In this document: piece by piece, positions 20,451 through 32,208 of the stretch
How the letters are laid out: each line of letters starts with the position of its first letter
Position numbering within the stretch: the first letter of the stretch is position 1
Assembly: GCF_900142975.1 (NCBI RefSeq)
Contig: NZ_LT670848.1
Location: forward strand, 1,984,001-2,048,000
Direction of reading: 5' to 3'
From: Salegentibacter salegens
GTDB lineage: Bacteria > Bacteroidota > Bacteroidia > Flavobacteriales > Flavobacteriaceae
DNA length: 64,000 bases
Notes under the pieces: model-generated
Told to the model about the DNA's origin: nothing
The model's database searches: none
What the model saw: the letters and a program-made list of their open reading frames with translations, nothing else
Position numbers and translations under genes: made by a program

Positions 20451-20471
20451 TCGATTATCGAGTAAAACTGA
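20451..20471 (+). repeat. Second exact copy of a 21-bp repeat
   Basis: The sequence begins TCGATTATCGAGTAAAACTG and is identical over 21 bases to 17011-17031. Both copies lie 12 to 82 bases upstream of plus-strand genes. The remainder of the spacer 20316-20552 shows nothing further. Confidence 0.65.
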
Positions 20472-20552
20472 GTTTAATCATATTTATATGGAGAAAACGA
20501 TAATAAATTTACCTGATTCCATTAATTGAACATTTTCTATAAACAGGTTATT

Positions 20553-21889: not shown

Positions 21890-21934
21890 GCTGATTTTCA
21901 TCATATTATCTGAATCAAATTTTCTAAAAATTTG
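21890..21934 (+). promoter_or_regulatory. Crp/Fnr-like site and weak -7 element upstream of fixI
   Basis: GCTGATTTTCATCATAT (21890-21906) contains TGAT-N4-ATCA, close to the FNR consensus TTGAT-N4-ATCAA. AAAATTTG (21927-21934) is a -7 element with one mismatch. The dyad centre is 36.5 bases from the last base of the -7 element, identical to ccoS and hemN, which is near -41.5 relative to the expected start. Confidence 0.65.
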
Positions 21935-21953
21935 CAGTTAAAATACAGGAAGA

Positions 21954-24359
21954 ATGAACAGCTGTTTTCACTGTGGTGAAGAATGTAAGGAAGATCACAT
22001 TGTTTTTCAGGAAAAGGATTTTTGCTGCCACGGCTGCAAAACGGTTTTTGAAATTCTAAACGAAAGTGACCTTACTTATTACTACGATATACAGGAAAAA
22101 CCTGGAATTTCCCCAGGTGCTTCAGAAGGAAAGTTCGACTTCCTGGAGAACGAAGAAATAGCCGAAAAACTTCTTGAGTTTAATGAGAATAACACCCAAA
22201 TTGTTAATTTTCTTATCCCATCGGTACACTGCAGCTCCTGTATCTGGGTTTTAGAAAATCTTGGGAAGCTTAACAAAGGCGTAAAATTGGCACAAGTAGA
22301 TTTTCCAAAGAAAACCGTGCGTATAAGTTTTTCTTCGGAAAAAATAAGTTTAAAAGAACTCGTATATCTTCTAAGCAGAATTGGCTACGAACCCTATATT
22401 TCCCTGAAGGATTACGATGAAAAAGATCACAGAATAAACCGAAGCTTAATTTATAAATTAGGCGTTGCCGGTTTTGCGTTTGGAAATGTGATGTTCCTCT
22501 CCTTCCCCGAGTATTTTGAAGTAAAAGAATTCTGGCTGGAACAGTTCAAGCATTTATTCCGATGGTTGATGTTTGCTTTTTCTCTTCCGGTGGTTTTTTA
22601 TTCTGGTTCTGGTTATTTTATATCAGCTTATAAAGGTTTACGCGCTAAAATCTTAAATATAGATGTTCCCATAGCCCTGGGAATTGCTGTGCTTTTTATT
22701 AGAAGTACTACAGAAATTCTACTTGATCTTGGCACCGGCTTTTTTGACAGCCTTACGGGACTTGTTTTCTTCTTGCTACTTGGAAAATTCTTTCAACAAA
22801 AAACTTATTCCTATTTATCTTTCGAGCGGGACTATAAGTCTTATTTCCCTATGGCGGTTACGCGACTAAAAACTAATTCTTCAAAAGAAATCACAGAAGA
22901 ACAGGTTCAGGTTTATAACGTACAACCCGGGGACCGAATTTTAATAAGAAACGGGGAATTAATTCCTATAGATTCGGTTTTAATGAAAGGCCGCGCTAAT
23001 ATAGATTACAGTTTTGTAACCGGTGAGGCCGAAGCCGTTAAAAAAGCATCTGGTGAAACTCTCTACGCAGGTGGCCGCCAACAAGGTGGGATTCTGGAAA
23101 TTGAAGCTATAAAAGCCATAGACCAGAGTTATCTAACCAAACTTTGGAGCAATGAAGTCTTTAAAAAGGACAAAAAAGGCCAATTTCAAAGTTTAATCAA
23201 TCAAATAAGTAAACGATTTACCGGCGGGGTTTTAAGCATAGCATTCCTGTCAACCCTTTTCTGGCTGGTTTATGATCCCTCCATAGCACTTAATGTTTTT
23301 ACCGCAGTATTAATAATTGCCTGTCCCTGTGCCATTGCGCTGGCCACTCCTTTTACACTGGGAAATTTGTTACGCATCTTCGGAAGAAATAAATTCTATT
23401 TAAAAGAGGCCGGCGTTATAGAACAAATTGCGAAAATAGATTGCCTGGTTTTTGATAAAACCGGAACTATTACTTCAAATAAAAAGACCGAAGTTTTTTA
23501 CGAAGGATTAAAACTTAATGCTGAAGAAGAGCAATTGCTTAGCAGTAGCTTAAGAGCTTCGGGCCATCCATTAAGTCGGCAACTTTACCAGATCCTCGAT
23601 AAAAACAATATTCTAAGTTTAGATGAATTTAACGAGCATACCGGAAAAGGTATAAGCTCTGGGAGTAACGGCAGCAAAATGAAAATTGGATCATCTTCTT
23701 TTGTTAGAGAAAGCGAGACTGAAACTAAAGAACTCAATAAAACGGCGGTTCATATAAGCAGTAATGAAGAATATAAAGGATGCTATATTTTTAAGAATTC
23801 TTACCGGGAAGGTCTTGCCAATTTGTTTAAGGAATTAGGAGAAAGTAAGCAGCTCTTTATCCTTTCTGGCGATAACGATGGTGAAAAGGAGAAGCTTGAA
23901 AATATGCTACCCTTAAACACTAAATTTTACTTTAATCAAAAACCCGATGATAAGCTAAATTTTATAAAAAAGCTCCAGGAAGAAGGGAAATCGGTGATGA
24001 TGATTGGCGACGGACTTAACGATGCGGGGGCACTTGCACAAAGTGATGTTGGGATTGCCATTTCAGAAAATATAAATGTTTTCTCTCCTGCTTGCGATGG
24101 CATCCTGGAGGCTTCAAATCTCACCCGACTAGGCGAATATTTTAAACTTTCAGAAAAAGGCATAAAAATTATCAAATGGAGCTTTGTATTGAGCCTTTGT
24201 TATAATGTGGTAGGACTTGCATTTGCAGTTACAGGAAATTTAATGCCGGTAATCGCTGCTATTTTAATGCCACTGAGTTCTATTAGCATTGTGGCTTTTA
24301 CAACCCTGGCAACAAACTTTGCCGGAAAGAAATTAAAAACTGTATTCACCAAAACCTGA
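21954..24359 (+). CDS. fixI: Copper-transporting P-type ATPase of cbb3 oxidase assembly (CcoI/FixI)
   Basis: The 801-residue P1B-ATPase opens with a cysteine-rich segment (CFHCGEEC, CCHGC). A heavy-metal-associated domain with HCSSCIW follows, then the transmembrane block. The copper motif CPC is in IACPCAIALATPF, the phosphorylation site is DKTGT, and the ATP-domain end is GDGLNDAGALAQSD. CcoI proteins supply copper for the CuB centre of cbb3 oxidase. The gene directly precedes ccoS and ccoNO, as in the classical fixGHIS cluster. Its stop codon lies inside the regulator site of the ccoS promoter. Confidence 0.95.
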   Translation: MNSCFHCGEECKEDHIVFQEKDFCCHGCKTVFEILNESDLTYYYDIQEKPGISPGASEGKFDFLENEEIAEKLLEFNENNTQIVNFLIPSVHCSSCIWVLENLGKLNKGVKLAQVDFPKKTVRISFSSEKISLKELVYLLSRIGYEPYISLKDYDEKDHRINRSLIYKLGVAGFAFGNVMFLSFPEYFEVKEFWLEQFKHLFRWLMFAFSLPVVFYSGSGYFISAYKGLRAKILNIDVPIALGIAVLFIRSTTEILLDLGTGFFDSLTGLVFFLLLGKFFQQKTYSYLSFERDYKSYFPMAVTRLKTNSSKEITEEQVQVYNVQPGDRILIRNGELIPIDSVLMKGRANIDYSFVTGEAEAVKKASGETLYAGGRQQGGILEIEAIKAIDQSYLTKLWSNEVFKKDKKGQFQSLINQISKRFTGGVLSIAFLSTLFWLVYDPSIALNVFTAVLIIACPCAIALATPFTLGNLLRIFGRNKFYLKEAGVIEQIAKIDCLVFDKTGTITSNKKTEVFYEGLKLNAEEEQLLSSSLRASGHPLSRQLYQILDKNNILSLDEFNEHTGKGISSGSNGSKMKIGSSSFVRESETETKELNKTAVHISSNEEYKGCYIFKNSYREGLANLFKELGESKQLFILSGDNDGEKEKLENMLPLNTKFYFNQKPDDKLNFIKKLQEEGKSVMMIGDGLNDAGALAQSDVGIAISENINVFSPACDGILEASNLTRLGEYFKLSEKGIKIIKWSFVLSLCYNVVGLAFAVTGNLMPVIAAILMPLSSISIVAFTTLATNFAGKKLKTVFTKT

Positions 24360-24399
24360 TTTCGATCATATTTTAAATTTTAACACCGCTTTAAGTTTG
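24355..24399 (+). promoter_or_regulatory. Crp/Fnr-like site and promoter of the ccoS-ccoNOQP operon
   Basis: CCTGATTTCGATCATAT (24355-24371) holds TGAT-N4-ATCA and overlaps the fixI stop codon. TAAGTTTG (24392-24399) is a full TAnnTTTG -7 element without an obvious -33 TTTG, as expected for an activator-dependent promoter. The spacing from dyad centre to the last base of the -7 element is 36.5 bases. Confidence 0.72.
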
Positions 24400-24420
24400 C
24401 TGAAAATAAATTCATTTTAA

Positions 24421-24615
24421 ATGAACATCATTTACCTCTTACTTGCATTAAGTGTTTTAGTAGCCCTCATTTTCTTTGTCGCCTTTATTTTTTCAGTTAA
24501 AAAGGGACAGTATGACGATGTCTATACACCATCGGTAAGGATGCTGTTTGACGATGAATTAGTTAAACCAAAATCTGATAAATCCAATTCCACCAAAAAC
24601 AAGAAATCTAATTAA
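24421..24615 (+). CDS. ccoS: cbb3 oxidase assembly protein CcoS
   Basis: The 64-residue protein has a single N-terminal transmembrane helix (IIYLLLALSVLVALIFFVAFIFSV), followed by KKGQYDDVYTPSVRMLFDDE. The DD...P...R.LFDDE pattern is diagnostic of CcoS. It is needed for cofactor insertion into cbb3 oxidase. The basic Lys/Ser/Asn-rich tail is not conserved. It starts 22 bases after the promoter's -7 element and is followed by ccoNO after two bases. Confidence 0.93.
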   Translation: MNIIYLLLALSVLVALIFFVAFIFSVKKGQYDDVYTPSVRMLFDDELVKPKSDKSNSTKNKKSN

Positions 24616-24617
24616 CT

Positions 24618-26819
24618 ATGGAAGTAGAACAGTTTCATTACGATAATAAAATCGTAAAAAAGTTTACTATAGCTACCCTGTTCTGGGGTATAGTGGGTAT
24701 GAGTGTAGGGCTGCTGCTCGCCTTTATGTTTATATTTCCCGATCTAACCGACGGAATTTCGTGGTTAAGTTTTGGCCGTTTAAGGCCATTACATACTAAC
24801 GCGGTAATTTTTGCTTTTGTGGGGAACGCCATTTTCGCAGGGGTTTATTATTCCACCCAACGCTTGCTTAAAGCCAGGATGTATAGCGATTTCTTAAGTA
24901 ATTTCAACTTTTGGGGTTGGCAGGCTATTATTGTTGCAGCCGCCATCACCCTACCAATGGGTTTTACCAGCTCTAAAGAATATGCCGAACTGGAATGGCC
25001 TATAGATATTGCTATTACTTTGGTGTGGGTTGCTTTTGGTGCCAACCTTATTGGTACCATGATCAAGAGAAGACAGCGACACCTATATGTAGCAATTTGG
25101 TTCTACCTTGCCACTTTTGTAACCGTAGCCGTACTTCATATTGTAAATAATATTGAAATTCCTGTTACTGCTTTTAAAAGTTACTCTGTGTATTCAGGAG
25201 TGCAGGATGCTTTAGTACAATGGTGGTATGGGCACAATGCGGTGGCATTCTTCCTTACTACACCTTTTTTAGGTTTAATGTATTATTTTGTTCCAAAAGC
25301 GGCCAACAGGCCGGTTTATTCTTATAGACTTTCTATTATTCACTTCTGGTCTCTTATATTTATCTATATCTGGGCCGGACCTCACCATTTATTATATTCA
25401 ACCTTACCAGACTGGGCACAAAACCTTGGTGTAGCCTTTTCGGTTATGCTATTATTCCCTTCCTGGGGAGGTATGATCAACGGACTATTAACCCTACGTG
25501 GTGCCTGGGATAAAGTACGAACCGATCCTGTTCTTAAATTCTTTGTAGTAGCTATTACCGGTTACGGGATGGCAACTTTTGAAGGACCTATGCTTTCGCT
25601 TAAAAACGTAAATGCGATCGCGCATTTTAGCGACTGGATTATTGCTCACGTTCACGTTGGAGCTTTAGCCTGGAACGGTTTCCTAACTTTTGGTATGGTT
25701 TATTGGTTAGTACCAAGATTATTTAAAACAAAACTCTTTTCTATTAAACTAGCCAATGCCCACTTCTGGATTGGTACACTGGGAATTATTATTTACACTT
25801 TACCAATGTACGTTGCCGGATTTGTACAGGCTTCTATGTGGAAACAATTTAATCCCGACGGAACCCTTACCTACGGAAACTTCCTGGAAACTGTTACTTC
25901 TATTATGCCAATGTACTGGATGCGTGCAATTGGTGGTAGTTTATATATTGTAGGTGCATTTATTCTACTTTATAATATTGTACAAACTATTAGACAGGGA
26001 AGTGAAGTTGAAGATGAGTTAGCTGAAGCTGCTCCTTTACAAAAAGTAACCCGTAAAAGAACTACCGGTGAAGCTTACCACTCCTGGTTAGAAAGAAGAC
26101 CTGTAAAACTTACCATTTTTGCTACGATCGCTATTTTAATTGGTGGTGTGGTACAAATAGTACCCTCGCTAATGGTAGATGAATATGTACCGGTAATTTC
26201 CAGTGTAAAACCTTATACGCCATTAGAACTTGAAGGCCGGGATATATACATTCGGGAAGGCTGTGTGGGGTGCCACTCACAAATGATTAGGCCATTTAGA
26301 AGTGAAGTAGAACGCTATGGCGAATATTCTAAAGCCGGGGAATATGCTTACGACTATCCTTTTCTATGGGGAAGTAAACGTACCGGTCCCGATTTAATGC
26401 GGGTAGGCGGTAAATATTCCGATAACTGGCACCTAAACCATATGTACGATCCGCAGAGTACCTCTTCAGGCTCTATAATGCCGTCTTACAAATGGATAAT
26501 TACAGACGAACTTGATAAAAGTGATACCGAAGCTAAAATGAAAGCTCTTAGCAAGCTTGGCGTGCCATATACTTTAGAGGAAATAGAAAACGCCCAGCAG
26601 TGGATGGCAGAACAGGGAACTCAAATTGAGAAAAATCTCTATGCAGATCCTGACTTTGTGAAAACTTATGAAGCTGAAAAGGAATTTGCAGAACAAAACG
26701 ATACCGAATTCGTAGAAATGCGAAACCGTGAAATTGTTGCTCTAATAGCTTATTTACAGCGTCTTGGGACTGACATTAAGGCTAAAGATGTAGAAGTATC
26801 AACCACTAAAACCAACTAA
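24618..26819 (+). CDS. ccoNO: cbb3-type cytochrome c oxidase, fused CcoN-CcoO subunit
   Basis: The 733-residue protein joins subunits I and II. Residues 1 to about 480 are CcoN: twelve or more helices with histidine ligands for low-spin heme (RPLHTNAV), for heme b3/CuB (QWWYGHNAVAF, WAGPHHLLYS) and the close pair HVHVGALAWNG. Residues about 500-733 are CcoO: a single anchor helix (IFATIAILIGGVVQIVP), then one c-type heme site CVGCH at 549-553 with a likely axial Met in SIMPSYKW. It reduces oxygen to water at high affinity. The fusion is a known feature of Bacteroidota. It is in one operon with ccoS, ccoQ and ccoP. Confidence 0.96.
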   Translation: MEVEQFHYDNKIVKKFTIATLFWGIVGMSVGLLLAFMFIFPDLTDGISWLSFGRLRPLHTNAVIFAFVGNAIFAGVYYSTQRLLKARMYSDFLSNFNFWGWQAIIVAAAITLPMGFTSSKEYAELEWPIDIAITLVWVAFGANLIGTMIKRRQRHLYVAIWFYLATFVTVAVLHIVNNIEIPVTAFKSYSVYSGVQDALVQWWYGHNAVAFFLTTPFLGLMYYFVPKAANRPVYSYRLSIIHFWSLIFIYIWAGPHHLLYSTLPDWAQNLGVAFSVMLLFPSWGGMINGLLTLRGAWDKVRTDPVLKFFVVAITGYGMATFEGPMLSLKNVNAIAHFSDWIIAHVHVGALAWNGFLTFGMVYWLVPRLFKTKLFSIKLANAHFWIGTLGIIIYTLPMYVAGFVQASMWKQFNPDGTLTYGNFLETVTSIMPMYWMRAIGGSLYIVGAFILLYNIVQTIRQGSEVEDELAEAAPLQKVTRKRTTGEAYHSWLERRPVKLTIFATIAILIGGVVQIVPSLMVDEYVPVISSVKPYTPLELEGRDIYIREGCVGCHSQMIRPFRSEVERYGEYSKAGEYAYDYPFLWGSKRTGPDLMRVGGKYSDNWHLNHMYDPQSTSSGSIMPSYKWIITDELDKSDTEAKMKALSKLGVPYTLEEIENAQQWMAEQGTQIEKNLYADPDFVKTYEAEKEFAEQNDTEFVEMRNREIVALIAYLQRLGTDIKAKDVEVSTTKTN

Positions 26820-26821
26820 GC

Positions 26822-27010
26822 ATGTTTAAATTTGTAAAAGGCCATATGGAAAGTATAGACGGGGTGATGATCTACCCGCTAATTTCCCTGCTCATTTTCT
26901 TCATCTTTTTTGTAGTGCTTTTTCTATGGGTAATTACCGCAAAAAAGCAAGATATAGAAGAGGTAAGTAAATTACCCCTGGATACTAAACCAGAAAACCA
27001 GGAATTATGA
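26822..27010 (+). CDS. ccoQ: cbb3 oxidase small subunit CcoQ (FixQ)
   Basis: The 62-residue protein has one hydrophobic helix (YPLISLLIFFIFFVVLFLWV) followed by TAKKQDIEEVSKLPLD, the usual CcoQ pattern of a helix and a short polar tail ending near Leu-Pro-Leu-Asp. It stabilises the cbb3 complex. It starts two bases after ccoNO, and its stop codon overlaps the ccoP start in ATGA. Confidence 0.88.
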   Translation: MFKFVKGHMESIDGVMIYPLISLLIFFIFFVVLFLWVITAKKQDIEEVSKLPLDTKPENQEL

Positions 27011-27888
27011 AAAAGATAGCATATTTAAGAATTCTGGGGTTCCTAATTCTTGCCCTGATTTTAATAGAATTAACCGTTGAAACTGAAAGCGGATGGGCCA
27101 TTGAACAATATCCCGTTATTTGGTGGATACTGGCTGTAGTACTCGTAATTGCTGTAGCCATAGAAGTCTCTCTGGCAGCTTTAGAAAGTATGGTTTTTAA
27201 AAGTCTAAAGCCTGACGCGCAGCAACATTATACAAAGTTGAAAATTGAAAATTCTGACAAGCAGTTCGTAGGCTTAAAAAAGTTCTATAAGAAGATGCTA
27301 AATCAGCAACCTGTGGAGAAAGAAGAAGAAATTCTTTTAGATCATAATTACGATGGTATTAAAGAACTGGACAACGATCTTCCCGCCTGGTGGCTCTATG
27401 GTTTTTACATCAGTATTGTTTTTGCTTTTGTGTATATGGCCTACTATCACATTTTTGATGGAGAAACCCAAAGAGAGGAATACCTGGCCGAGGTTGCAAA
27501 AGCTGAGAAAGATGTGGAAGCTTATAAAGCAGAAAATCCAGATTTAATAGACGCCTCTTCTGTAGAACTTTTAACAGAAGCTTCAGATCTTGAAGCAGGA
27601 GAACAAATATTTATGACAAGTTGCATGGCTTGTCACAAGGCAGATGGCGGCGGAAGCATTGGCCCCAACCTTACCGATGAGCATTGGATTTTAGGAGGAG
27701 GAATTAGTAATGTATTTCAAACAGTTTCTGAAGGTGGTCGCGACGGGAAAGGTATGGTTGCCTGGAAATCTGAATTAAATGCCCAGGAAATAGCCCAGGT
27801 CTCCAGTTATGTTTTAAGTCTACAAGGAACAAATCCTCCAGACGCAAAAGCACCTGAAGGTGACATTTGGGTAGCAGATTCAGAATAA
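27007..27888 (+). CDS. ccoP: cbb3 oxidase mono-heme subunit CcoP
   Basis: The 293-residue protein has two N-terminal hydrophobic helices, a cytoplasmic segment, and the CcoP hallmark region LDNDLPAWWLYGFYISIVFAF (about 120-140). A single cytochrome c domain follows, with CMACH at 206-210 and a Met ligand probably in GKGMVAWKS. Proteobacterial CcoP carries two hemes; here only one CxxCH is present, which I recall as usual in Bacteroidota. It accepts electrons for CcoN. Overlap of four bases with ccoQ indicates coupled translation. Confidence 0.94.
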   Translation: MKKIAYLRILGFLILALILIELTVETESGWAIEQYPVIWWILAVVLVIAVAIEVSLAALESMVFKSLKPDAQQHYTKLKIENSDKQFVGLKKFYKKMLNQQPVEKEEEILLDHNYDGIKELDNDLPAWWLYGFYISIVFAFVYMAYYHIFDGETQREEYLAEVAKAEKDVEAYKAENPDLIDASSVELLTEASDLEAGEQIFMTSCMACHKADGGGSIGPNLTDEHWILGGGISNVFQTVSEGGRDGKGMVAWKSELNAQEIAQVSSYVLSLQGTNPPDAKAPEGDIWVADSE

Positions 27889-27906
27889 ATTTTAGAAAAA
27901 CAGGTT

Positions 27907-29322
27907 TTGGAAAATCAGGAAAAATTCAGAGATACAATTGCCACGGCAGACGACGAGGGTAAAAGACTATGGGTTTTTCCGAAGAAACCTTCAGGTAGAT
28001 TTTATGAGTATAGAAAATATGTAAGTTATGTATTGCTCATTTTACTTTTTGCCGCTCCATTTGTAAAAATTAACGGCAATCAGTTTATGATGTTCAATAT
28101 CCTGGAAAGACGATTCAATATTTTTGGGTTTCCTTTCTGGCCACAGGATTTTCACATTTTTGTAATTATGATGGTAATTGGGGTGGTTTTTATCATCCTC
28201 TTTACTGTTGCTTTCGGAAGGATTTTTTGTGGCTGGCTTTGCCCACAAACCATTTTTATGGAAATGGTTTTCCGCAGAATTGAATACTGGATTGAAGGAG
28301 ATCGTGGCAAACAAATGCGCCTTGAAAAACAAAAATGGGATGCTGAAAAAATTAGAAAACGCTCCTTAAAGTGGTTTTTGTTTTTTGTGATTTCTTTTCT
28401 AATTGCCAATGTTTTCCTGGCCTATTTAATGGGTAGTGACCGTCTTATACAATATGTAACTGATGGTCCTTTTAACCACCTCAGTACTTTTATTTCTTTA
28501 TTGATTTTCACCGCGGTATTCTATTTTGTGTTTGCCTGGTTTAGAGAACAGGTTTGTGTAATTGCCTGTCCTTATGGTAGGCTGCAAGGCGTGTTACTCG
28601 ATAATAAATCTATTGTTGTAGCCTATGATCACAAACGTGGAGAAAAAGAAAAAGGAAGGGCAAAATTCAAAAAAAATGAAACCCGTGCAGAAACAGGAAA
28701 AGGCGACTGTATAGACTGTTTTCAATGCGTACAGGTTTGCCCAACCGGGATAGATATTAGAAACGGTACGCAGCTGGAATGTATAAATTGTACTGCATGT
28801 ATAGATGCCTGCGATAGTATGATGGAAGCTGTAGATCTTCCAAAAGGATTAATCAGGTATGCCAGCGAAGAGAATATTGAAAAGAAAGCAAAATTCAAAT
28901 TTACGCCCAGGTTAAAAGGTTACAGTATTGTTTTAGGAATTTTAACCGCGGTATTGGTTGGGATGTTGTTTATAAGAAGCGAAATTGAAGCCAGGATCTT
29001 AAGGTTACCAGGCCAGTTATACGAACGTAAAGCCGAGAATATAGTTAGTAATGTATTTACCTATAAACTGGTAAATAAAACTACGGCCGATTTTGAAGAT
29101 GTTGAATTCAGGTTATTATCCCATAAGGGTGAAATAAAGCCGGTAAAGCATTCAAATATTACCGTACCGGGACAGGAATTAACCGAAGGAACACTTTTTA
29201 TCGAAATTCATTCGGCCGTACTGGAAAACGAAAAAGAAAAACTCAAGATTGGGGTTTATAGCGGTGATAGGTTAATAGAAACTACCAGCACTACCTTTAT
29301 GGGACCACGTAGTTTTAATTAA
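27907..29322 (+). CDS. ccoG: cbb3 oxidase accessory protein CcoG (FixG), iron-sulfur membrane protein
   Basis: The 471-residue protein starts with TTG, 18 bases after ccoP. It has about five transmembrane helices, the motif GRIFCGWLCPQT after the second, and CVIACPYGRLQ. Two ferredoxin-like clusters follow in GDCIDCFQCVQVCPTG and CINCTACIDACD. A final helix and an exported Ig-like C-terminal domain complete the layout. CcoG is a cupric reductase that helps copper reach CcoN. All expected Cys residues are visible. Confidence 0.94.
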   Translation: MENQEKFRDTIATADDEGKRLWVFPKKPSGRFYEYRKYVSYVLLILLFAAPFVKINGNQFMMFNILERRFNIFGFPFWPQDFHIFVIMMVIGVVFIILFTVAFGRIFCGWLCPQTIFMEMVFRRIEYWIEGDRGKQMRLEKQKWDAEKIRKRSLKWFLFFVISFLIANVFLAYLMGSDRLIQYVTDGPFNHLSTFISLLIFTAVFYFVFAWFREQVCVIACPYGRLQGVLLDNKSIVVAYDHKRGEKEKGRAKFKKNETRAETGKGDCIDCFQCVQVCPTGIDIRNGTQLECINCTACIDACDSMMEAVDLPKGLIRYASEENIEKKAKFKFTPRLKGYSIVLGILTAVLVGMLFIRSEIEARILRLPGQLYERKAENIVSNVFTYKLVNKTTADFEDVEFRLLSHKGEIKPVKHSNITVPGQELTEGTLFIEIHSAVLENEKEKLKIGVYSGDRLIETTSTTFMGPRSFN

Positions 29323-29403
29323 ACAGAAAATACTGGACATCAATATCGATTAAACACAGGAATAGAATTAAATATCCCAATTATGGGATTAAAAAAGGAA
29401 AAG

Positions 29404-29850
29404 ATGAAAATAAACTGGGGAACAGGAATTGTGATTGGAATGGCACTTTTTATCAGTTTTATTATGTATTTGGTGATTAATATGCTCACCGACACAAAAT
29501 TTGACCACGATTTGGTAACCGAAGAATATTACCAGAAAGAATTACACTATCAGGAGGAAATTGATGCAGAAAATAATGCTTTTTCTTTGGAAAAAAATAT
29601 TAGTGATCGCCGTGTAAAAGATGGATGGCTCGTTGAGTTTCCCAAAAACCTGGAACTTTCTAAAATTTCAGGAAATTTAAATTTTTATCGCCCGTCTAAT
29701 GCAAAGCTAGATTTTAATATCCCTTTGGAATTAACCTCACATCAAATTTTTATTGCGGATAAAAATTTGGTTAATGGACGTTGGAATATCAATATTCACT
29801 GGGAATATGAAGAAACTCCCTATTTATATAAAAACGAAATAGTTTACTAA
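29404..29850 (+). CDS. ccoH: FixH/CcoH-family cbb3 oxidase accessory protein
   Basis: The protein has 148 residues from the chosen ATG. One N-terminal helix (GIVIGMALFISFIMYLVINM) is followed by a periplasmic beta-rich domain with LVTEEYYQKELHYQEEID, a typical FixH feature, and a C-terminal NINIHWEYEE strand. CcoH binds the oxidase during assembly. An upstream ATG at 29383 extends the frame by seven residues (MGLKKEK). AAGGAAA just before ATG 29404 favours the inner start. The next gene begins directly after its stop codon. Confidence 0.85.
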   Translation: MKINWGTGIVIGMALFISFIMYLVINMLTDTKFDHDLVTEEYYQKELHYQEEIDAENNAFSLEKNISDRRVKDGWLVEFPKNLELSKISGNLNFYRPSNAKLDFNIPLELTSHQIFIADKNLVNGRWNINIHWEYEETPYLYKNEIVY

Positions 29851-30552
29851 ATGTGGGTTTCGGCACTAATATTCGGGCTTTTAGGAAGTTTTCACTGCGT
29901 GGGTATGTGCGGTCCTATTGCGTTTTTATTGCCGGTAGATCATAAAAACAATTTAAAAAAACTTGGCCAGATCGCGCTTTATCATTTTGGAAGACTAAGC
30001 TCTTATGCCATTATAGGACTTTTATTTGGGTTGCTGGGCAACAGTTTTAGATTGTTTGGGCTTCAGCAGCAACTTTCAATTTTAGTGGGAATTTTAATGA
30101 TTTTGATAATTCTTATTCCGTATAAAAAATTCAGTAAATACAACGGTTCAAAATTTATTTTCAAAATTGTTTCAAAAGTAAAAAGCAGCCTGGGAAAACA
30201 ATTGAAACAAAAATCACCCGATACTTTTTATACCATTGGATTTCTAAACGGTTTTCTCCCTTGTGGACTCGTTTATATGGCGGTTTTTGGAGCTATCGCT
30301 TCGGGAACGGCTTTAGAAGGCAGTTTATATATGGCACTTTTTGGCCTGGGAACGGTGCCTTTAATGACTGCCGCTATTTACCTCGGAAACTTTATTAATC
30401 TTAATCTTAGATCAAAAATTAGAAAAGCGGTTCCCGTGTTTGTAGTAATAATGGGAATGCTGTTTATACTTAGAGGAATGGGACTCGGAATTCCATACCT
30501 CTCCCCTATGGAAATAACTCCGGAAATTACAGCAGCGCAAAGCTGCCATTAA
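29851..30552 (+). CDS. SafE/TauE-like (DsbD_2-type) membrane protein of the cbb3 cluster
   Basis: The 233-residue protein has about six transmembrane helices. It opens with WVSALIFGLLGSFHCVGMCGP, whose HCxxMCGP motif is shared by the sulfite exporter TauE/SafE-like and CcdA/DsbD-like proteins found beside cbb3 oxidase genes. A second internal repeat starts FLNGFLPCGLVYMAVFGA. The two halves suggest an internal duplication. The Cys residues could move copper or reducing equivalents for oxidase assembly. The start codon immediately follows the ccoH stop codon. Confidence 0.85.
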   Translation: MWVSALIFGLLGSFHCVGMCGPIAFLLPVDHKNNLKKLGQIALYHFGRLSSYAIIGLLFGLLGNSFRLFGLQQQLSILVGILMILIILIPYKKFSKYNGSKFIFKIVSKVKSSLGKQLKQKSPDTFYTIGFLNGFLPCGLVYMAVFGAIASGTALEGSLYMALFGLGTVPLMTAAIYLGNFINLNLRSKIRKAVPVFVVIMGMLFILRGMGLGIPYLSPMEITPEITAAQSCH

Positions 30553-30567
30553 CCTAAAACACTTGTT

Positions 30568-30702
30568 ATGAATTTATTTGACACTATTGCATTGGTAAAT
30601 TGGGAACTGGGCACTTTTCTAATCGCGATGTTTTTTGTTGTTTGTGCCGGCTTGGTGCTTATTGTTCTAAATATGATAGGCAGCGGAAATGACAAAGAAT
30701 AA
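30568..30702 (+). CDS. 44-residue single-helix membrane protein at the end of the cbb3 cluster
   Basis: An ATG at 30568 opens 44 codons: a short polar start (MNLFDTIALVNWELG), one hydrophobic helix (TFLIAMFFVVCAGLVLIVLN) and the polar end MIGSGNDKE. It starts 15 bases after the SafE-like gene and lies before a strong terminator, so it belongs to the same transcript. I do not recognise a named family. By position it may be an accessory or small subunit of the oxidase. The evidence for translation is its placement and clean helix only. Confidence 0.6.
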   Translation: MNLFDTIALVNWELGTFLIAMFFVVCAGLVLIVLNMIGSGNDKE

Positions 30703-30733
30703 AACTTGATTTTTTTTAAAAAAAGAACCCAAT

Positions 30734-30772
30734 AAAAAAGTCCGTCTGGAAAGTTTCCAAACGGACTTTTTT
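30734..30772. terminator. Bidirectional intrinsic terminator between the cbb3 cluster and hemN
   Basis: The nearly continuous stem AAAAAAGTCCGT..TGGAAA/TTTCCA..ACGGACTTTTTT has only one-base interruptions and T-runs on both strands. It ends both the plus-strand cbb3 cluster and minus-strand hemN. Confidence 0.93.
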
Positions 30773-30789
30773 GCATTACCACTTTCAAA

Positions 30790-32145
30790 CTAAACCGTCA
30801 TAGAAAATAATTGGGTGTTGGGTTTTTGTGCCTGCATTCTTAAATCGAAAGCCATACAAATATTACGAATAAAAGCTCTTCCCTTTTCAGGGATTGTTAA
30901 TCCATTTTTAGAAAAAGTAACGAGTCCGTCTGCTTCCATTTCCCGCAATTTAATAAGTACCTCTGGTAATTCTTCAAAATAATCTTCAGGTGCTGCCCAG
31001 TTCGTTTCCAGGCGACACATTAAATTAAGGATATGTTTTCTTATCACCAGATCTTCTTCATTTAAAATATGCCCACGAAATACCGGAATAATCCCTTCGG
31101 CAATAAGTTCCTGATATGCTTCAACCGATTTCTCATTTTGTGCAAAACCGTACCAGCTGTCACTTATTGCTGAAACTCCCAGGCCAATCATAGAAGTCCC
31201 TGAAGAAGTGGTATACCCCATAAAATTTCTATGTAATTTTTTTTCCTCTACAGCTTTATAAAGAGTGTCACTTTTAAGTGCAAAATGGTCCATCCCAATT
31301 TCTACATAACCGGCATCTTCCAGCATTTGCTTTCCTGTTTCATACATTTCCCGTTTTTCATCTCCCCCGGGAAGATCAGAATCCTTAAAACCACGCTGCC
31401 CGTTACCTTTAATCCACGGTACGTGAGCATAGCTGTAAAACGCAATACGATCTGGCATTAATTGTTTTGTCTTTTCTATGGTATCAATAATATCTTCTTT
31501 GGTTTGAAATGGTAACCCAAAAATAATATCGTGCCCTACCGAAGTAAAACCGGCTTCCCGTGCGTGATCTGTAGCATCTTTTACATTTTGAAAAGGTTGA
31601 ATTCTATGTATAGCTTTTTGTACTTTTTCACTATAATCCTGTACGCCATAACTCACCCTTCTAAAACCAAGTTCAGCCAGGACTTTTAAATGTTCTTTGG
31701 TAGTATTATTAGGATGTCCTTCAAAACTTAATTCTGTTTCACAATCTCTATCAGCTTTCCGAAAAAGCATTTTGAGAAGAAATTTAAGATTCTCAGGAGC
31801 AAAAAAGGTTGGGGTACCACCGCCAAGATGCACTTCCCGAATAATTGGTTTATCTCCCAGCATTTCAAGATAAAGATCCCATTCCCGTAGTACGCTTTCT
31901 ATATAGGGCGTTTCAACCGAATGCTTTTTGGTAATTCGCTTATTACAACCACAAAAAGTACAAAGGCTCTCACAAAACGGTAAGTGTATATAAAGACTAA
32001 TTTCTTTATTTTCTTTAAAACTTCGTATTAAACTGTTTTCCCAGGCACCTGAAGAAAATGTTTTGTCGTCCCAATACGGCACAGTAGGGTAACTGGTATA
32101 ACGTGGTCCCGGTACGTTATATTTAGTAATAAGATTAGAAGACAT
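30790..32145 (-). CDS. hemN: Oxygen-independent coproporphyrinogen III oxidase
   Basis: The 451-residue radical SAM enzyme has CxxxCxxC at Cys58, Cys62 and Cys65 followed by another Cys in CGC, as in true HemN. It also has GGGTPTF for SAM binding and the C-terminal HemN domain (MIGLGVSAISD and LNEEDLVIRKHILNLMC). It converts coproporphyrinogen III to protoporphyrinogen IX without oxygen, in heme synthesis. Its place beside the cbb3 cluster and a shared regulator site upstream fit joint induction at low oxygen. Confidence 0.95.
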   Translation of the reverse strand: MSSNLITKYNVPGPRYTSYPTVPYWDDKTFSSGAWENSLIRSFKENKEISLYIHLPFCESLCTFCGCNKRITKKHSVETPYIESVLREWDLYLEMLGDKPIIREVHLGGGTPTFFAPENLKFLLKMLFRKADRDCETELSFEGHPNNTTKEHLKVLAELGFRRVSYGVQDYSEKVQKAIHRIQPFQNVKDATDHAREAGFTSVGHDIIFGLPFQTKEDIIDTIEKTKQLMPDRIAFYSYAHVPWIKGNGQRGFKDSDLPGGDEKREMYETGKQMLEDAGYVEIGMDHFALKSDTLYKAVEEKKLHRNFMGYTTSSGTSMIGLGVSAISDSWYGFAQNEKSVEAYQELIAEGIIPVFRGHILNEEDLVIRKHILNLMCRLETNWAAPEDYFEELPEVLIKLREMEADGLVTFSKNGLTIPEKGRAFIRNICMAFDLRMQAQKPNTQLFSMTV

Positions 32146-32163
32146 AAAAGCTATAGTTTTTTA

Positions 32164-32208
32164 CAAAATTAAAATACGTATGGCTTATTTGATATGAGTA
32201 GGATCAGG
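32164..32208 (-). promoter_or_regulatory. hemN promoter with a Crp/Fnr-like site
   Basis: On the minus strand, TAATTTTG (32171-32164) fits TAnnTTTG. CCTGATCCTACTCATAT (32208-32192) shares the flanks and one half-site of the fixI and ccoS sites, with one mismatch in the dyad (TGAT-N4-CTCA). The centre lies 36.5 bases from the last base of the -7 element, exactly as at ccoS. The rest of the spacer to 32436 holds only a possible plus-strand -7 element (TAAGTTTG, 32240-32247). Confidence 0.6.

Follow-up and report, generated by a model that had tools for sequence, protein, structure and literature searches.

FNR of Escherichia coli and its relatives recognises a TGAT-N4-ATCA core at the class II position of promoters serving low-oxygen respiration and heme synthesis, and the polymerase contact made from this position is established for both FNR and CRP. 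In the rhizobial FixL-FixJ-FixK cascade, the output of FixJ is of the LuxR type and FixK is a separate protein. Here we describe a 64-kb stretch of the Salegentibacter salegens genome (positions 1984001-2048000 of NZ_LT670848.1, the single contig of a 4.01 Mb genome; this whole stretch is referred to as the window) in which predicted Crp/Fnr-type sites precede fixI, the ccoS-ccoNOQP genes and hemN. These promoters are best explained as members of a class II Crp-family low-oxygen regulon, most likely run in this genome by a PAS-domain histidine kinase together with a response regulator that joins a receiver to a Crp-type protein (REC-CRP), an explanation that we consider reasonably probable as a whole.

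Sites and promoter geometry in the window

A total of three exact matches to the 17-mer SCTGATNNNNMTCATAT were found in the window, whereas 100 dinucleotide-preserving shuffles contained 0.01 on average and in no case three. They lie 5' of fixI, ccoS and hemN (Table 1), and at all three promoters the dyad centre is 36.5 nucleotides from the last G of the -7 element. The combined pattern TGATN4nTCA-N23-[AT]AnnTTTG also occurs three times, with a mean of 0.01 and a maximum of one in 200 simulated windows. The TGA-N6-TCA dyad of class II Crp/Fnr-dependent promoters is present in each site. According to a transcript-start study in Flavobacterium psychrophilum, TAnnTTTG is located at -12 to -5 (PMC9723704). 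With this placement, the last G falls at -5 and the centre of the dyad close to -41.5; the three sites would therefore occupy the class II position, provided that the F. psychrophilum position of the -7 element holds here.

The first-pass annotation of this DNA had proposed the three sites, their constant distance from the -7 element and their class II placement; the sites and the distance were recovered, and the placement holds given the F. psychrophilum position. The motif was not equally frequent or equally spaced in random sequence. A chance or compositional coincidence with no regulatory role is hardly credible, as it is refuted by the spacing tests and by the conservation tests given below, and the intragenic matches found elsewhere in the genome, which could be cited in its favour, offer nothing for the three window sites.

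Genome-wide occurrence of the site

In the whole genome, the 17-mer was observed six times against one match for the reversed control, and two of the three matches outside the window fall in a duplicated block. A scan for TGATN4ATCA-N23-TAnnTTTG with up to two mismatches returned 138 matches against 40 for the reversed pattern; these include one 43-mer repeated at least eight times as well as intragenic matches, some of which are probably due to chance. When the gap between TGAY-N5-TCAT and TAnnTTT[GA] was left free from 12 to 32, a single spacing (total length 43) accounted for 22 of the 31 matches while nine were spread elsewhere, and the reversed control gave nine matches over the same gaps. 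The whole-genome scan, a check named in the first-pass annotation, returned one dominant spacing. The 22 sites take in those of ccoS and hemN but not that of fixI, because the fixI -7 element is AAAATTTG. Part of the consensus first read from the window, sCTGAT-N4-mTCATAT, is general, namely the core TGAY-N4-nTCAT, whereas the flanking SC and TAT do not hold generally.

Strict sites precede nosZ, a cytochrome c gene, a short gene before PPDK, a ribosome-hibernation factor, nadA, an MlaE-type gene and a short-chain dehydrogenase. They are also found before a universal stress protein (USP) gene located after REC-CRP, before a three-gene USP-like run at 149-152 kb and another at 3310 kb (assigned as USP by sequence look only), and on both sides of a second REC-CRP gene. 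Weaker sites precede a NarK-family transporter, a further USP gene that is present twice, and a hemerythrin-PAS gene. The regulon is larger than the three window genes, is shared by many Flavobacteria and probably has a low-oxygen role.

Three further observations were made during these scans. The identical 43-mer, starting TTATCTGGAGCAGC, occurs at no fewer than eight places in the genome and probably lies within a repeated mobile element. The twice-present USP gene and its upstream sites are about 8.5 kb apart (G000:C1:1888.8-1889.8k and 1897.3-1898.3k; L052; G000:C1 denotes the contig of this genome) in what is apparently a duplicated block. A 599-residue protein with no Pfam or NCBIfam match has two divergent sites upstream of it (G000:C1:1743447-1745445; L050).

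Conservation in related genomes

Relatives were taken from 49 of 80 named ccoNO loci (L097 was left out), giving 50 genomes together with this one. Their promoters were scanned with a looser -7 element (four free bases followed by TTT), and gaps of 22-24 were accepted where 23 failed. A site was found in 100 of 116 ccoS, fixI and hemN promoters, 95 of them at the exact spacing of 23, against 3 matches in 2320 shuffled promoters. With the three promoters of this genome added, sites are present in 49 of 56 promoters of genomes with only an FNR-like protein (described below), 36 of 38 where both regulators occur, and 18 of 25 where only REC-CRP occurs. The strict pattern gave 578 matches across the 50 genomes against nine for the reversed control, and 48 of the 50 genomes contain at least one.

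The first T of the -7 element is absent from fixI promoters in 36 of 38 relatives (loci L095-L157) and is always present at ccoS (42/42) and hemN (15/15). This imperfect fixI element perhaps reflects a tighter dependence on the activator or a constraint from a divergent gene.

Candidate regulators

The fixI start is visible in the loci of 44 of the 49 relatives, and 31 of these 44 have a Crp-family gene that is divergent from fixI and no more than 250 nucleotides away, so that the fixI site sits between the two genes. That fixI, ccoS-ccoNOQP and hemN form one class II regulon of the Crp/Fnr type, as first suggested from the window, is strongly supported by these neighbouring Crp-family genes together with the genome-wide spacing and the cross-genus conservation. 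The FNR-like protein was found in 39 of the 50 genomes, absence being scored when the best E-value was above 1e-35. Among the 38 FNR-like open reading frames (ORFs) from the 80 loci, 36 have CxxC in the first 70 residues and 33 have a cysteine at the position of FNR C122. FNR carries its four Fe-S-ligand cysteines, three of them N-terminal, at positions 20, 23, 29 and 122. Three of these four positions are matched by a cysteine (20, 23 and 122, not 29) in the FNR-like proteins, for example L128:5541-6227 (-), and the protein beside fixI is possibly a variant metal or Fe-S sensor, judging from these residues. Its best solved match is structure 2gau of the Crp/Fnr family (E-value 1e-29), which we take to be from Porphyromonas gingivalis.

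The genome studied here is among the 11 without the FNR-like protein. The search for Crp/Fnr genes that had been recommended at first reading yielded nine cNMP-domain proteins in this complete (99.99%) genome, including REC-CRP. None of the nine has CxxC within the first 40 residues, the four cysteines of FNR were not found, and a search with the FNR-like protein at E-values up to 1e-15 matched REC-CRP alone. An FNR homologue encoded in this genome was therefore rejected as the binder, no such protein being among the nine. Reading of the sites by a conventional Fe-S FNR of the proteobacterial kind is suggested by the TGAT-N4-ATCA core and by the CxxC protein beside fixI in relatives, and is nevertheless very improbable given these absences and flanks unlike TTGAT...ATCAA: T precedes TGA in 0-9% of sites, depending on the group, and A follows TCA in 0-3%.

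The receiver domain of REC-CRP matches PF00072 at 6e-30 and a D-x-x-M-P-type motif is present in 36 of 39 homologues, as expected of a response regulator. The protein is 95-98% identical to several proteins named as Salegentibacter, and more than 7,500 protein clusters match it at E-values up to 1e-40. No PDB match spans both of its halves among the 60 listed of 339, and no NCBIfam model passes its cut-off among the 25 listed of 69. Usable ORFs were obtained from 39 of 41 REC-CRP loci (ORF starts uncurated); 33 of them fit the helix pattern, seven with S for I, as did 37 of 38 FNR-like ORFs. The recognition helix E-[ST]-x-I-R was matched in 37/37 FNR-like and 26/33 REC-CRP proteins. Ser212 of FNR has an established role, and the isoleucine found at its position in both protein groups may be related to the altered flank. 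The position equivalent to CRP 180 is mostly T or S in REC-CRP (25/33) and position 181 is E in 33/33. Rodionov and colleagues link two CRP residues to motif bases, R180 to G3 and E181 to A6 (PMC1274295), and the residues of REC-CRP are consistent with a TGA half-site that lacks the TGTGA of CRP.

Association of the sites with REC-CRP

Full-length REC-CRP is present in 11 of the 11 genomes without the FNR-like protein against 15 of the 39 others (Fisher test, 2.7e-4, kinship ignored); G184 (E-value 3e-53, no kinase match at the locus) was not counted as a carrier. In an evenly drawn set of genomes from the order, four of 21 from the family of the window lack the FNR-like protein and all four carry REC-CRP, against nine of the 17 others; this genome belongs to both sets and other genomes may be shared too. 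Of 148 genomes of the order, the 83 that have neither regulator show a density of 0.15 sites per Mb; the value is 1.21 for the 49 with the FNR-like protein alone, 2.77 for the four with REC-CRP alone and 3.84 for the 12 with both. In this set, the FNR-like class (E-values up to 1e-38) also takes in one family's homologues whose alignment begins no earlier than about residue 16 and which therefore lack CxxC. Within the family of the window, genomes with both regulators have 6-41 sites against 3-16 for the FNR-like protein alone (p = 0.002).

Sites were also found to be concentrated around REC-CRP genes, no more than 15 kb away, in seven of the eight genomes tested, comprising seven REC-CRP genomes with a full site listing and this genome with slightly looser sites (G148, 7/14; G149, 9/20; G153, 6/15; G157, 6/9; G158 with two genes, 15/30; G162, 4/22; this genome, 7/22). 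The 18 stretches of 20 kb around REC-CRP genes hold 73 strict sites against none with the -7 element reversed, and a site lies directly 3' of the REC-CRP gene on the same strand in 15 of 17 loci examined.

Reading of the sites in this genome by another of its Crp-family proteins, namely the second REC-CRP, a 198-residue Crp beside the nos cluster or a 234-residue Crp, is unlikely, although each has something to recommend it. The first two carry the E-x-x-I-R helix; the second REC-CRP has five strict sites within 4 kb, with sensor-like proteins following it (by sequence look); the 198-residue Crp belongs to the nos cluster, where nosZ carries a site; and cysteines of the 234-residue Crp could sense redox. 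The 198-residue Crp was set aside, as it occurs in only five of the 11 genomes lacking the FNR-like protein, all of which have REC-CRP, and the helix of the 234-residue Crp is TRAVVNR rather than E-x-x-I-R. The 234-residue protein (G000:C1:1974227-1974931; L055) has its CxxC at residues 48-51, within the start of the cNMP domain, and is unrelated to the FNR-like protein.

The kinase and the signal sensed

The kinase encoded just upstream of REC-CRP has a PAS domain whose closest solved structure is FixL (E-value 1e-16), with DosP matched as well. The proximal histidine of FixL is its heme ligand, and a histidine of the kinase is aligned with it. Of 42 REC-CRP loci, 41 contain a kinase match and one, L200 (G184), does not; by eye the histidine is kept in 33 of the 41 aligned kinase ORFs. 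Heme-based oxygen sensing by this kinase is suggested by the match to FixL and DosP. REC-CRP might instead read the sites in response to redox, nitric oxide (NO) or another signal, as the kinases without the histidine, the nosZ gene in the regulon and the weaker site before the hemerythrin-PAS gene would allow; with FixL and DosP as the PAS matches among solved structures, we regard this as possible though somewhat unlikely.

Operator sequence and regulator specificity

Over all scanned loci, the consensus is ATGAYAAWTRTCATATTTT in genomes with only the FNR-like protein and CTGAY-N4-RTCATATTTT in those with only REC-CRP, the gene sets differing between the groups. Orthologous sites were therefore compared over the same gene sets. 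The base after TGAY is A in 49/49 sites with the FNR-like protein only against 6/18 with REC-CRP only (p = 3e-9), and C precedes TGA in 9/49 against 12/18 (p = 3e-4). The earlier suggestion of a regulator with its own specificity gains support from these differences.

Weighing the regulator assignment

Several observations weigh against assigning the sites to REC-CRP and its kinase. No site was found in seven of the 25 promoters of REC-CRP-only genomes. On the CcoNO tree, the complementarity of the FNR-like protein and REC-CRP comes down to five independent pairs (starred branches), never in the same direction (p = 0.25), with seven changes of state of the FNR-like protein on the best tree, five of them forced by starred branches; the base shift comes down to three independent pairs. 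Both tree-corrected tests agree in direction with the uncorrected ones but are not significant, the independent pairs being too few. Genomes with neither regulator are all below 2.4 Mb, so that genome reduction is confounded with regulator loss. Within this genome, five of the seven clustered sites surround the second REC-CRP and two the proposed one, so the second could be the reader. Elsewhere, none of the five sites of G191 is near its REC-CRP, G192 carries REC-CRP and has no strict site, and the 20-kb REC-CRP stretch of G151 has none either.

The base after TGAY was also compared within genomes carrying both regulators. G154 (region L291) and G165 were left out of the strict scan near REC-CRP because their two regulators lie within about 7 kb of each other. 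A follows TGAY in 20/44 sites near REC-CRP against 34/36 at the named promoters, which becomes 11/15 under a strict scan of whole cco loci (p = 0.078), so that the contrast hinges on the choice of sites. The histidine is missing, by eye, from eight of the 41 kinase ORFs: four (L070, L072, L195, L196) retain a PAS-like stretch, and in the other four (L073-L075, L192) no PAS is seen at that place. A histidine at that PAS position is in any case no proof of heme.

Annotated features

The window features and the proposed regulatory genes are listed in Table 1. For part of the gene set, low-oxygen expression has been described in F. psychrophilum, where the cbb3 oxidase is reported to be strongly induced, and heme-synthesis enzymes to increase, under oxygen limitation (PMC9723704).

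Table 1. Predicted sites, promoter elements and genes (window positions unless prefixed with G000:C1)
Feature	Position	Strand	Remarks
Weaker fourth candidate site, 5' of nhaA (gene preceding fixI)	20469..20511	+	TGAGTTTAATCAT + TAAATTTA, same spacing
Predicted Crp/Fnr-type site 5' of fixI	21890..21906	+	GCTGATTTTCATCATAT
fixI -7 element	21927..21934	+	AAAATTTG, without first T
fixI, heavy-metal P-type ATPase, 801 residues	21954..24359	+	ATPase-cat_bd and HMA domains (Pfam/NCBIfam)
Predicted Crp/Fnr-type site 5' of ccoS	24355..24371	+	CCTGATTTCGATCATAT, overlaps fixI end
ccoS -7 element	24392..24399	+	TAAGTTTG
ccoS	24421..24615	+	TIGR00847
ccoNO, fused cbb3 oxidase subunits I and II	24618..26819	+	Pfam/NCBIfam
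ccoQ-like small protein, same gene run as ccoNO	26822..27010	+	Read from sequence
ccoP position, 293 residues, same gene run	27007..27888	+	ORF; named from position and sequence reading
ccoG	27907..29322	+	TIGR02745
hemN, oxygen-independent coproporphyrinogen III oxidase	30790..32145	-	TIGR00538
hemN -7 element	32164..32171	-	TAATTTTG
Predicted Crp/Fnr-type site 5' of hemN	32192..32208	-	CCTGATCCTACTCATAT
REC-CRP response regulator, 342 residues	G000:C1:2234686-2235714	-	REC + cNMP + HTH_Crp_2
PAS-HisKA-HATPase histidine kinase, just upstream of REC-CRP	G000:C1:2235755-2236987		
Second REC-CRP (L051)	G000:C1:153416-154429		Receiver degenerate (no Pfam match)

Proposed mechanism and comparison with known systems

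In the mechanism that we propose, a dimer of the Crp/Fnr family at -41.5 would recruit polymerase to TAnnTTTG when oxygen falls, by class II activation. In most relatives examined the cco, fixI and hemN sites are probably read by the FNR-like protein, often encoded divergently from fixI, while in this genome, where that protein is absent, REC-CRP would be the most likely reader. The PAS kinase with its FixL-like, putatively heme-binding domain would phosphorylate REC-CRP, and the phosphorylated dimer would then occupy -41.5 and contact polymerase in the manner of class II activators. The FixL-FixJ-FixK cascade would in this way be compressed into one kinase and one regulator.

A wider reading, which we put forward tentatively and with some doubt, is that in Flavobacteriaceae REC-CRP with a FixL-like heme kinase has repeatedly replaced the FNR-like one-component sensor at the promoters of cbb3, fixI and hemN. 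The operators would have kept the -41.5 geometry and drifted from ATGAYA to CTGAY, so that the two regulators would have overlapping yet distinguishable specificities, with REC-CRP adding a larger stress and denitrification regulon. The analysis yields a motif, a spacing, a regulon and two candidate regulators, as well as a set of naturally occurring regulator losses across which the promoter geometry stayed constant and the operator bases changed, and it makes low-oxygen sensing in Bacteroidota without an Fe-S FNR directly testable. In the open-licence literature searched, no description was found of the receiver-Crp fusion, of this motif or of an oxygen-responsive Crp-family regulon in Flavobacteria; the parts are of known kinds and their combination seems to be new.

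REC-CRP shares with CRP the order of a cNMP domain followed by HTH_Crp. The roles of the E, R and S/T residues of the CRP cyclic AMP pocket are established, and in the alignment these positions are N, Y and G in REC-CRP, unlike a cyclic AMP receptor. REC-CRP also differs in having T, S or another residue instead of R at position 180, and the sites are without the TGTGA motif. HcpR2 of Bacteroides likewise governs a Crp/Fnr-family regulon in the same phylum, but its motif is GTAACnnnnGTTAC and its target is hcp (PMC1274295). An anammox meta-regulon paper gives Flavobacteriales Crp homologues a MalR-like, carbon-sensing role (PMC8510549).

The system resembles FNR of E. coli and its relatives in the TGAT-N4-ATCA core, the class II position and the low-oxygen respiration and heme targets, and differs in the flanks: in most cases C or A precedes the core and T follows it, compared with T and A in FNR. 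With the rhizobial FixL-FixJ-FixK system it has in common a FixL-like PAS kinase, a Crp-family output and the fixI and cbb3 (fixNOQP) targets; the difference is that receiver and Crp parts, which FixJ and FixK keep apart, are fused here in one 342-residue protein.

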